Shown: piece after piece, positions 5,724 through 9,697 of the stretch | Layout: every line of letters starts with the position of its first letter | Numbering within the stretch: the stretch's first letter is position 1 | Assembly: GCF_002214585.1 (NCBI RefSeq) | Contig: NZ_CP014862.1 | Span: forward strand, 1,240,001 to 1,304,000 | Length of the DNA stretch: 64,000 nt | Source of the DNA: Thermococcus profundus | GTDB taxonomy: Archaea > Methanobacteriota_B > Thermococci > Thermococcales > Thermococcaceae | Direction: 5' to 3' | Made by a program: the position numbers and the translations under genes | Notes under the pieces: model-generated | What the model saw: the letters and a program-made list of their open reading frames with translations, nothing else | What the model was told of the DNA's origin: nothing | The model's database searches: none

Positions 5724-6887
5724 GTGAAAAAGGTGGAGAGGTTTAGGGAGCACCTCCGCCTTGGGAACTACCGGGGAGCGTTTGCAGAGGCCCTCCGCGA
5801 GAGGAACCCGTTCAGGAGGGCGGTGATGATAGCGGAGATCATAGCGAGATCTTATCGGGAGGAGTTCGTTCCCCAGCTCATCGAGGCACTGGAGGAGATA
5901 AAATCGCCGAAAGAGCTAGCGATAGCTGAATCCTACACGGCCAGGGCCTTTTACGCACTTGAAATGGAACGAGATGGGGAGAGGCACTTCCAGAGGGCCT
6001 TCGAGGAGCTCAGAAGAATGGCATCACCCATGGAAACGGCGGAAGTCCTGGGAATAATCGGGAAAAACCTCGTTCTCTCCGGGAGGTACAGCGACGGCCT
6101 TAAAGCCTTTAGAAAGGCCTTTGATACACTCCAGTCCGCCAGGGCTGTGTACTCCGAAGTGGTTTCTGGCCTTGTGAACCTCGCCAGAAGGGTGGAAATG
6201 AGTGCGGAGGAGATCCCCAACGAGATCGCGTTGAAGTTCTATGAACTGGCCTCGGACATCTACGAGAGCCTCGGCTTCAAGCTCCAGGCTAGGGAGATAA
6301 AGGAAAAGATGAAAACTGCAGAGGAAGTTTTCAAAAGGGGTTCCTTAGCAGTTACGGAGCTTCTTGAGAGGGGAGACGTTGACAGGGCTCTGCAGATGGC
6401 GAGGTTCCTTCCACCCGGGGAGAGGGCGGTGGCGATGCTGAACGTTTCTTACTGGCTCTTCATTCACGACTACAGCGATCTCGCAAGGGAAGTGTTCAAC
6501 GACGCCACAGAGATGCTCCTCGTGGGAAAGTTCAAGGCCAGGGAAGGTGAGATCGAGGCTGTTGCCTACAAATTCCTCAGGGTGGGCAAGCTCAACGAGG
6601 CTATGGTTCTGGCGGGTCTTCTCAGGGACGAAAGGAGGTTCTCAGAGCTGATGGGGGAGATAGCACTAACCTACGCTCGCCGGGGAGAGGTTGAGCAGGC
6701 AAAGGAACTTGCCATGAGGATAGGCGATATCCTTATTAGGGATAAAGTCGCAAAGGCTATCAGGGAGGTTGAGGAAACTCGGGTGACCCCCGGACCTAGG
6801 ACGCCCCCCGAACCGGATCTGGAATCAGATGATTCTAATCGTGAAGGGGGTGAGGGGGGCAGTTTGGATGCTGATAGAGAGAATTGA
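5724..6887 (+). CDS. Helical-repeat (TPR-like) protein, first of a tandem pair
   Basis: 387 residues, almost entirely amphipathic helices arranged as repeated pairs (Ala-rich helices such as AESYTARAFYAL and GKNLVLSGRYSDGLKAF), consistent with a tetratricopeptide-like solenoid. No catalytic motif or membrane segment is visible. It is a paralog of the next gene: both carry an MARF/MARY-P-P-R segment and a VFNDAT/IFNDAT motif near residue 257-262 at the same spacing. The last 45 residues are acidic and Pro/Gly-rich and probably disordered. Starts at GTG 5724; another GTG lies 9 bp downstream. Function unknown, probably a scaffold for protein contacts. Confidence 0.75.
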   Translation: MKKVERFREHLRLGNYRGAFAEALRERNPFRRAVMIAEIIARSYREEFVPQLIEALEEIKSPKELAIAESYTARAFYALEMERDGERHFQRAFEELRRMASPMETAEVLGIIGKNLVLSGRYSDGLKAFRKAFDTLQSARAVYSEVVSGLVNLARRVEMSAEEIPNEIALKFYELASDIYESLGFKLQAREIKEKMKTAEEVFKRGSLAVTELLERGDVDRALQMARFLPPGERAVAMLNVSYWLFIHDYSDLAREVFNDATEMLLVGKFKAREGEIEAVAYKFLRVGKLNEAMVLAGLLRDERRFSELMGEIALTYARRGEVEQAKELAMRIGDILIRDKVAKAIREVEETRVTPGPRTPPEPDLESDDSNREGGEGGSLDADREN

Positions 6888-7977
6888 GGAGTATGTAAGG
6901 AGAGATAACGTCTGGGGGGCCCTGAGGCTGATCTCCGAGGAAAAGGACGGAGTCACCAGGGCCGAACTCCTAGCGGAGCTTCTCAAAAGAGTCACAAAAT
7001 ACGACGAGTACAGGGCGGTTAAGGACGAACTTCTGGAGTGCACTGCCGATGCACCCGACAGAAAAACAAAGGCGCTCATTCTCTCCATAATAGGTGAGGC
7101 GTTGCTCTCCTCAGGGGACTACGACGGCGTCAAGTTCTTTGAGGAAGCCATTTCAACCGCGAGACGCATTGGATTCCCGCTATGGAGGGCTGAGGCCTTT
7201 ATCGGAGTGGCCCTCAACCTGATCAGAGCTGGCATCTACGAAGACGCATATTCCCTTCTCAACTCTGCCTTCGAAGGAGTTGTGGTGGCTAGAACCGAAG
7301 ATCCCGACAGCGCCATAAGACTCCTCCGCAACCTCGCCGATTCTCTGCTCATTTCGATCGAGTGGATAGACGACGGTGAGTGGGCAAAGCTCTATCTCAC
7401 TACCGCGGCCGAGGTTTACGAGTACATTGGAATCGATTTCCTAGCTAATTCGGCCAAGGCAAAGGCCTGGATAATAGACCGCGCCCTGGAGGGCAACACT
7501 ACCTTCTTAAGGCGCCTCCTGGCAGAGAATCGGGTAGACGACGCCATACTAATGGCCCGCTACATCCCCAGAGAGCACAGGGGAATGGCGTTCCTTGAGA
7601 TAGCGTTCTGGCTCTACGCCAACGACTATCCAGAACTTGGCAGGGACATATTCAACGATGCCACAGCTTTGCTCTCTGAAAACGCTGGGACAGAACACGA
7701 GATCGCCGAGATAGCCAGGGATTTCCTCAAACTCGGCTATCCAGATCTGGCGTTCAGGCTCACGCGCTTCGTGGAGAACGAGCGCCTTCTCTCGGAGCTC
7801 CTTACGAGGATAGCCGCGGAGTACCACAGGCAGGGCGACGAGCTCATGGCAAGAACCGTGGCAATGAGCATACCCAACGAAACCATTAAGAGCAGGGTAG
7901 TCCAGCAACTTGGCGGTGGAGAACATGTGGGATACGAGCAAGGACTACAGGTTGCTGGTGGCGGAAAAAAGCGTTGA
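6868..7977 (+). CDS. Helical-repeat (TPR-like) protein, second of a tandem pair
   Basis: 369-residue paralog of the preceding gene, with the same all-helical layout and the same IFNDAT motif about residue 262. ATG at 6868 follows GAGGGGGG; an earlier ATG at 6829 lacks such a site. It overlaps the first paralog by 20 bp and the downstream tRNA-binding-domain gene by 53 bp, so the three form one transcription unit. The C-terminus ends in a basic GGGKKR tail that the first paralog lacks. No enzymatic motif seen. Linkage to a tRNA-binding protein hints at a translation-related complex, but that is only context. Confidence 0.75.
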
Positions 7978-8650
7978 GCTCTTCCTCAAGACGATCGAGG
8001 GCGCCAAGTTCAAGGGCAAGTGGGACAAGAAGAAGGCCATCCAGCTCGCGAAGGAAATGATCCCGGAGATTCAAGCCATGCGTTATTCCTACGTCGAGCC
8101 AAAGGAGTTAGTTGAGACGCCGCAAATGGAAGCCCTCAAGGAGAATGCCACGGGGATAATCGAAGCCCTCGGTGGGGAAGACTGGCACCACAAGTTCCTC
8201 AGCTTAGCCGACAAGAACGAGCGCGAGAAGGTCGAAGAGGCGGTAGCCAAGATCAAGTTCTTCCTGAACACCATCCTCAACCTTGACAAACGCCTCTCCC
8301 TGGGCAAGATCAACGATCCTGTAATAGCGGTCGATATTAGGGTCGGCGAAGTCATGAGCGTCGCCAAGCATCCGAACGCCGACAGACTGCTGGTCACAAA
8401 CGTCAACCTCGGAGACAGGGCGATAACCGTCGTCACCAACGACCTGGGCGTTAAGGAAGGTAACCGCGTTGCAGTGGCCCTCCTGCCCCCCGCCAACTTC
8501 CGCGGTATAGTGAGCGAGGGCATGTTCCTAGGTGCGGGGGAGGGCGTCCTCAAGGACGTCAAGGGGGAAATAGGCGGTCTTCCAAAGGGAGTTCCACTGG
8601 AGGCCTTTGTTGAAACGAGAAACCTCGTGGAGGCTTTTCTTAAGTCCTGA
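7925..8650 (+). CDS. tRNA-binding domain protein (Trbp111/EMAPII-like)
   Basis: 241 residues: an N-terminal helical part (1-130) and a C-terminal OB-fold tRNA-binding domain from about 137, with [18 protein letters not shown] and [16 protein letters not shown] typical of the domain found at the end of methionyl-tRNA synthetase and in Trbp111/Arc1p. ATG at 7925 is preceded by GGTGGA with 5 bp spacing, inside the 3' end of the second helical-repeat gene. Probably a free structure-specific tRNA-binding or aminoacylation cofactor. The final GTG/TGA region is followed by an antisense sRNA gene. Confidence 0.88.
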
Positions 8651-8670
8651 TTTTTCAATTCCCTATTTTG

Positions 8671-8684
8671 TTGAAAAAGAAAAA
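8671..8684 (-). terminator. T-rich terminator of the C/D sRNA
   Basis: Immediately after the D box the minus strand reads TTTTTCTTTTTC, two T runs typical of archaeal intrinsic termination. Confidence 0.6.
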
Positions 8685-8740
8685 TCAGCACTCAAGATCC
8701 TCATCATCCTTCCGTCAGCAACTGCCGAGGTCATCACCTA
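8683..8740 (-). ncRNA. C/D box sRNA (2'-O-methylation guide)
   Basis: The minus strand contains, in order, box C GTGATGA (8737-8731), a 12-nt guide, box D' CTGA (8718-8715), a 7-nt linker, box C' ATGATGA (8707-8701), a 12-nt guide and box D CTGA (8688-8685). This is the complete canonical archaeal arrangement with the standard 12-nt spacers. A TATA element at about 8760-8768 would start transcription next to box C and a T run follows box D. The D guide GGATCTTGAGTG complements a tRNA-Leu(CAA) anticodon loop; by the N+5 rule the methylated residue is C34. The D' guide CCTCGGCAGTTG would methylate the U of CAACUGCCGAGG, a target I cannot name. It lies antisense in the gap between the tRNA-binding-protein gene and the EamA gene. 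Confidence 0.88.
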
Positions 8741-8756
8741 GAGGGGATCTGGGTTG

Positions 8757-8827: not shown

Positions 8828-9697
8828 ATGAGTCAGATGGTTCTAGGCGTAGCGGCGGCCCTAACATCCGCCCTGTGCTGGGCTACTGCAACGATCTTGA
8901 TAAAAGTCGGCATGCGCTCCAAAAGCCCCGTGGCGGCCAACATACTCCGGCTTTACATTGTCTCGGTCATGTATCTCATCGTCATAATCCCCACCGACGG
9001 AATCCGAGAGATCCTGAACTCGGATCCCCGCTACCTCCTCCTCGCCTTTGTTTCCGCCCAGTTTGGGTTCGTTATCGGGGACTACTTCTACTTCCACGCG
9101 CTCCATCGGATGGGCGTCTCTCGAACCGTCCCGATAACCTCAACCTACCCCCTCTGGACCGTCCTATGGGCTTCTCTCTTCCTAGGGAGGAAGGTAAGCC
9201 CCAGGGTCTACCTCGGCGCCCTGCTCATAGTTCTGGCGATAGTCATCGTCCGCAGGGCGGAGGTTGAGGAGCACGCCGATCCAAAGGGCTTCGCCTTTGC
9301 CCTCATAGCTCCCGTCTCCTGGAGCGTGGCGATAACCGTAATGGACTGGCTCACCGGGCACTTCACCTCCCTCACGCTGGCCGCGCTCAGGATGTTCTCC
9401 GGAGCGGTGGGAGTTTCGGTTTTCCTGCCTGCTTACGGAGAAGAGATTCGGAGCACCACAAGAAAGGAACTGCTGATACTGTCGGGGGCGGCTTTCAGCG
9501 GCCTTTTCCTGGGCCAGTTCCTCTTCGTATACTCCACCCAGGCCGTTGGTTCCCAGGTCTCGGCGCCGGTGTCTGCCATAAACCCCCTCCTGACCTCGTT
9601 GATGGCTGTTGCCCTGCTTAAGGAGAAGCCAAGCAGACGGATATTCGAGGGACTCGTCCTGGCAATCGTGGGCATAATCCTCGTTTCGATGAAGTAG
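8828..9697 (+). CDS. EamA/DMT-family transporter
   Basis: 289-residue membrane protein with ten predicted hydrophobic helices in two homologous EamA halves (about 1-140 and 150-289). Typical signatures are SALCWATATILIKVG at the N-terminus, the helix-4 segment ISTYPLW-like VPITSTYPLW, and the second-repeat SAINPLLTSL. Drug/metabolite exporters of this type move amino acids or metabolites; the substrate cannot be told. Single gene divergent from the C/D sRNA. The start ATG has no Shine-Dalgarno sequence and seems leaderless. Confidence 0.88.
   Translation: MSQMVLGVAAALTSALCWATATILIKVGMRSKSPVAANILRLYIVSVMYLIVIIPTDGIREILNSDPRYLLLAFVSAQFGFVIGDYFYFHALHRMGVSRTVPITSTYPLWTVLWASLFLGRKVSPRVYLGALLIVLAIVIVRRAEVEEHADPKGFAFALIAPVSWSVAITVMDWLTGHFTSLTLAALRMFSGAVGVSVFLPAYGEEIRSTTRKELLILSGAAFSGLFLGQFLFVYSTQAVGSQVSAPVSAINPLLTSLMAVALLKEKPSRRIFEGLVLAIVGIILVSMK

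Follow-up and report, generated by a model that had tools for sequence, protein, structure and literature searches.

Among the C/D sRNAs described so far, the closest counterpart of the locus dealt with here is the Pyrococcus sRNA assigned to the wobble base of tRNA-Leu(CAA), which is recorded in a review (PMC7994747) and also in PMC7668247. In the latter source, C34 of the P. furiosus tRNA-Leu(CAA) is listed as a predicted site; Cm34 went undetected in the P. furiosus tRNAs analysed there, among which tRNA-Leu(CAA) may not have been recovered. Concerning the genus Thermococcus, two sources give 54 verified (PMC4247193) and 61 (PMC9014305) C/D sRNAs expressed by T. kodakarensis, i.e. RNAs of the same class and from the same genus as the one from T. 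profundus presented below.

The window, which is the whole stretch of 64,000 nucleotides analysed here, contains on its minus strand a box C/D sRNA core of 53 nt, counted from box C through box D (positions 8685..8737), the mature RNA probably extending a few nucleotides beyond this core at both ends. It shares with the Pyrococcus orthologs the D guide GATCTTGAGT and the core CTCGGC of the D' guide, and its predicted target is the same C34 as that of the Pyrococcus sRNA for the tRNA-Leu(CAA) wobble base. The differences concern the end of the D' guide (GTTG versus GGTC or GGTT in Pyrococcus), the linker (7 nt versus mostly 3 nt) and the genomic neighbourhood. They are accompanied by a difference in the score obtained with the Rfam model RF00095 (snoPyro_CD), the only Rfam match in the window at E<0.05: the present copy reaches 31.7 bits at 8682-8741, under the gathering cut-off of 45, whereas seven orthologs score 46-57 bits, their genomes being inferred to be Pyrococcus on a basis that includes the RF00095 match itself. 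It should be noted that RF00095 seems to bring together C/D sRNAs whose guides differ, since it also takes one copy (L174) of the paralog for tRNA-Leu(UAA) described below. The Rfam matches to Phe_leader and MIR7504, both far below the cut-off, were ignored.

With the Pyrococcus orthologs lying above the RF00095 cut-off and a Pyrococcus sRNA for the same wobble base being on record, the gene is an ortholog of a guide already described in Pyrococcus and is thus not new in kind, contrary to the earlier note on this DNA, in which it had been introduced as a new gene. The same note had named a covariance score below threshold as evidence against the gene; taken literally, this is what was found, the cut-off being one that suits the Pyrococcus sequences.

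Architecture of the gene and its neighbourhood

Read along the minus strand, the complete frame spans 8737-8685 as GTGATGA-CCTCGGCAGTTG-CTGA-CGGAAGG-ATGATGA-GGATCTTGAGTG-CTGA. It begins with box C (8737-8731), followed by the D' guide of 12 nt (8730-8719) with its conserved core, box D' (8718-8715), the D'-C' linker of 7 nt corresponding to the K-loop (8714-8708), box C' (8707-8701), the D guide, also of 12 nt (8700-8689), and finally box D (8688-8685). All four boxes correspond exactly to the consensus (RUGAUGA for box C, CUGA for both D' and D) and follow each other in order, the two 12-nt guides and the 7-nt linker being of the size usual for archaeal C/D sRNAs, in which the guides measure approximately 10-12 nt and the D'-C' linker is short. 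The strict C-D'-C'-D pattern has a single match when both strands of the 64-kb window are considered; 200 first-order Markov shuffles of this window yielded no match. The direct reading of the minus strand thus agrees with the order of the boxes, the exact guides and the linker as they had been noted previously, and the coordinates given at that time, 8683-8740, enclose the core.

The gene is situated between two plus-strand genes, one coding for a tRNA_bind-domain protein (7910-8650), the stop of which faces the sRNA gene in a convergent arrangement, and one for an EamA transporter (8828-9697), the start of which faces it in a divergent arrangement. The previous description of the locus as antisense between two coding genes holds as far as the position and the opposite strand are concerned; the sRNA gene, however, overlaps neither coding frame, so that the word can mean here opposite orientation only. 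Within the 3-kb loci examined for 30 Thermococcaceae, the divergent EamA gene accompanies the sRNA in 16, whereas the tRNA_bind neighbour is found in close relatives only, the genomic place being therefore conserved partly. Farther away, the open frame of 382 amino acids at 6829-7977 gave no Pfam match at E 0.001.

Conservation within and beyond the Thermococcaceae

The D-guide segment was searched for, with up to two mismatches allowed, in 94 genomes of the Thermococcaceae, and matches were obtained in 91 of them. One of these genomes (G088) contains the tRNA-Leu(UAA) paralog only, so that the tally for the tRNA-Leu(CAA) guide gene itself is 90 genomes with 91 copies; of the four genomes lacking the ortholog, three are represented by assemblies at 74-78% completeness. 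Secondary matches of the form TGAGTATCTTGAGTGCTG(A/T) in G020, G067, G070 and G072 were rejected, the rest of the C/D frame being missing around them. An orthologous gene is present also at G024:C1:1108466-1108487, the genome G024 being presumably that of T. kodakarensis strain KOD1. This copy is absent from the circular-RNA table of PMC9014305.

As to the D guide, the copies vary only at the positions -12 and -1, the ten nucleotides from -2 to -11 (GATCTTGAGT) being invariant; since the pattern used for collecting the copies was centred on this very segment, the invariance holds just inside its two-mismatch reach. In the present copy the segment adjoins box D inside the C/D frame as well. The linker is 7 or 8 nt long in 82 of the 91 copies and 3 nt in eight. 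Outside the family, the same guide or one differing in a single base (GATTTTGAGT) is placed within a C/D frame in another 14 genomes, which belong to other families of the class. In these sequences (L226-L239), the D guide for tRNA-Leu(CAA) is kept and the D' guide is quite different, as exemplified by GCGACCCCTT and AGATTCCCGG.

A paralogous C/D sRNA directed at the wobble position of tRNA-Leu(UAA) was observed at L158, L160, L161, L163, L165, L168, L171 and L173-L176, i.e. in Pyrococcus and in another genus of the Thermococcaceae. It has the same architecture, with the D guide differing in one or two positions (GATTTTAAGT, GATCTTAAGT), and its D' guide CCCGCGCAGC matches tRNA-Leu(UAA) over 10-11 nt, the tRNA of our own genome having served as a stand-in.

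Promoter and 3' end

Both flanking elements claimed previously, i.e. a TATA element and a run of T residues after box D, are present on the minus strand, their support as promoter and terminator being, however, unequal. The TATA element ATATAAA (8766-8760) has its downstream edge 22 nt before box C, and in the 91 copies aligned on box C the A+T content amounts to 0.86-0.91 at the positions -28 to -25 as compared with roughly 0.4-0.5 at -21 to -14. An A+T block at such a fixed distance is the pattern expected of a TATA box and argues strongly for a promoter.

The T-rich run TTTTTCTTTTTC (T5CT5C; 8673..8684), which immediately follows box D, might in principle be an archaeal terminator. It is, however, not a feature of the family, as the positions just 3' of box D are A-rich there on average, so that a terminator here is suggested only weakly. 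The region contains also an inverted repeat of 10 bp, CTGATTTTTC/GAAAAATCAG (8643..8688), stretching between box D and the stop codon that closes the convergent tRNA_bind gene. Downstream inverted repeats of at least 7 bp anchored at box D occur in 13 of 90 relatives versus approximately one expected from shuffled downstream sequence, and the repeat could possibly serve as a two-way terminator shared by the sRNA and the convergent gene.

Predicted target of the D guide

The targets of the D guide were sought among the 16S and 23S rRNAs and the tRNAs of the same genome, with 200 shuffled guides as a control. The best one is the anticodon arm of tRNA-Leu(CAA), with which 11 nt of the guide form contiguous Watson-Crick pairs (score 11), a score reached by two of the 200 shuffled guides. 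The tRNA-Ser(CGA) and tRNA-Leu(UAA) also pair well with this guide (10.5 versus 11), so that its specificity is not absolute. A tRNA-Leu(CAA) with the matching anticodon loop is present in 24 of the 25 genomes checked, its D arm being nearly invariant; a tRNA anticodon pattern allowing two mismatches was dropped as too noisy.

Within the duplex, C34 of tRNA-Leu(CAA) faces the guide nucleotide at the position -5 relative to box D. C/D guides direct methylation to the nucleotide opposite the fifth position upstream of box D, and the predicted product is therefore Cm34. The sRNA thus most likely directs, as judged from the complementarity, the ribose methylation of C34, the first anticodon base of the tRNA reading UUG.

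The earlier identification of the locus as a C/D sRNA gene is upheld by the ortholog in 90 of the 94 Thermococcaceae genomes, the kept boxes, the specific target of the D guide and the conserved position of the TATA element. With its observed architecture, conservation, TATA position and complementarity, the locus is very probably a stand-alone C/D sRNA gene, the D guide of which directs Cm34 formation in tRNA-Leu(CAA). Once transcribed, the RNA would be occupied by L7Ae both at its C/D kink-turn and at its C'/D' kink-loop, and the L7Ae-bound sRNA would recruit Nop5 and fibrillarin into an RNP. In the assembled particle, the D guide would hybridize to the anticodon arm of tRNA-Leu(CAA), aligning the wobble base C34 with the fifth guide nucleotide counted back from box D, and fibrillarin would make Cm34, which may stiffen the pairing of C34 with the G of UUG during decoding.

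The D' guide and alternative readings

The D' guide behaves differently across the copies. It drifts freely in its 3' half and measures between 10 and 13 nt, while 85 of the 91 copies, the present one included, retain the core CTCGGC one nucleotide downstream of box C, with the spacing fixed relative to box C and not to box D'. The six remaining copies (L092 in G024, L096, L103, L125, L130 and L138) carry CCAGGC or CTAGGC in its place. When the 32 distinct D' guides are averaged, the tRNA-Leu isoacceptors occupy the ranks 1-4 among 148 target pieces, by virtue of the D-arm sequence GCCGAG, and the 23S rRNA segment 1248-1333 ranks next after these four. In a plain RNA fold, pairing arises between the D' core and the end of the sRNA at box D (UCGGCA/UGCUGA); it was rejected as the cause of the conservation of the core, because seven copies with A at the position -1 lose a pair and keep the core, and the copies with CCAGGC lose a pair, too.

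A tentative reading, extending the assignment of the D guide to C34 without replacing it, is that the guide is bipartite: the D guide would lead to Cm34, and the D' guide would pair with the D arm of the same tRNA-Leu(CAA) (nt 8-15), either for docking or for methylation of U9/G10. The retention of the core at a constant distance from box C amid an otherwise drifting guide and the top ranks of the tRNA-Leu isoacceptors both point in this direction, as does the fact that the six exceptional cores match the adjacent stretch of the tRNA-Leu D arm (GCCTGG, nt 15-20), even though that stretch is common to many tRNAs. In the present copy, however, the D-arm match is weak, with a score of 8.5 equalled by 3% of shuffled guides, and it is outscored by a match to 23S 1270-1281 (10.0), which is yet no better than shuffled guides. 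Moreover, the D' guides of the other families share no common core, their match to their own tRNA-Leu being marginal or absent. Altogether, the match of the D' core to the D arm is only suggestive of an auxiliary contact or of another site.

As far as the choice between these two is concerned, the D' register shifts among the species and would bring different nucleotides opposite the position -5, which makes one fixed methylation site unlikely. Two sites on one tRNA are not unheard of, since the tRNA-Gln(UUG) of S. acidocaldarius is listed with sRNA-guided sites both in the anticodon and in the D loop, namely U34 and G18 (PMC7668247); for the tRNA-directed sRNAs of Pyrobaculum, one guide is described as being without a target (PMC7994747). 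It is conceivable, albeit doubtful, that the D guide selects C34 and CTCGGC makes a docking contact with the D arm of that tRNA, either without methylation or beyond it. The parallel would be the tRNA-Leu(UAA) paralog, the D' guide of which matches tRNA-Leu(UAA) with a score of 10-11.5, again with the tRNA of our own genome as a stand-in.

Rather unlikely is the possibility that the D' guide directs the methylation of U1274 (own numbering) in 23S rRNA, the sRNA thereby serving one rRNA and one tRNA site. The 11 contiguous pairs formed in the present genome, two of them G-U, would allow this, but their score equals the median of the shuffled guides, the 23S segment ranks under tRNA-Leu in the family as a whole, and the register of the D' guide is not conserved. 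Finally, a chance C/D-like string yielding no RNA product is extremely improbable and was rejected, because the Rfam score under the cut-off and a plain fold no more structured than that of shuffles (z 0.62), the latter in RNAs not expected to fold stably alone, are set against the complete absence of the strict pattern from the shuffles, the occurrence of orthologs, the guide and the TATA element being kept, in 90 of 94 genomes, and the Pyrococcus orthologs falling in RF00095.

Significance

The assignment of the D guide to C34 of tRNA-Leu(CAA) adds to the genome of T. profundus a confident guide gene with a clear predicted target, which is probably unannotated. The guide directed at the tRNA-Leu(CAA) wobble base is near-universal in the Thermococcaceae and is present beyond them in other families of the class. 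Should the D' core indeed dock on the D arm, this family, together with the paralog for tRNA-Leu(UAA), would offer a simple means of examining if C/D guides, besides selecting the base to be methylated, help to hold folded tRNAs.
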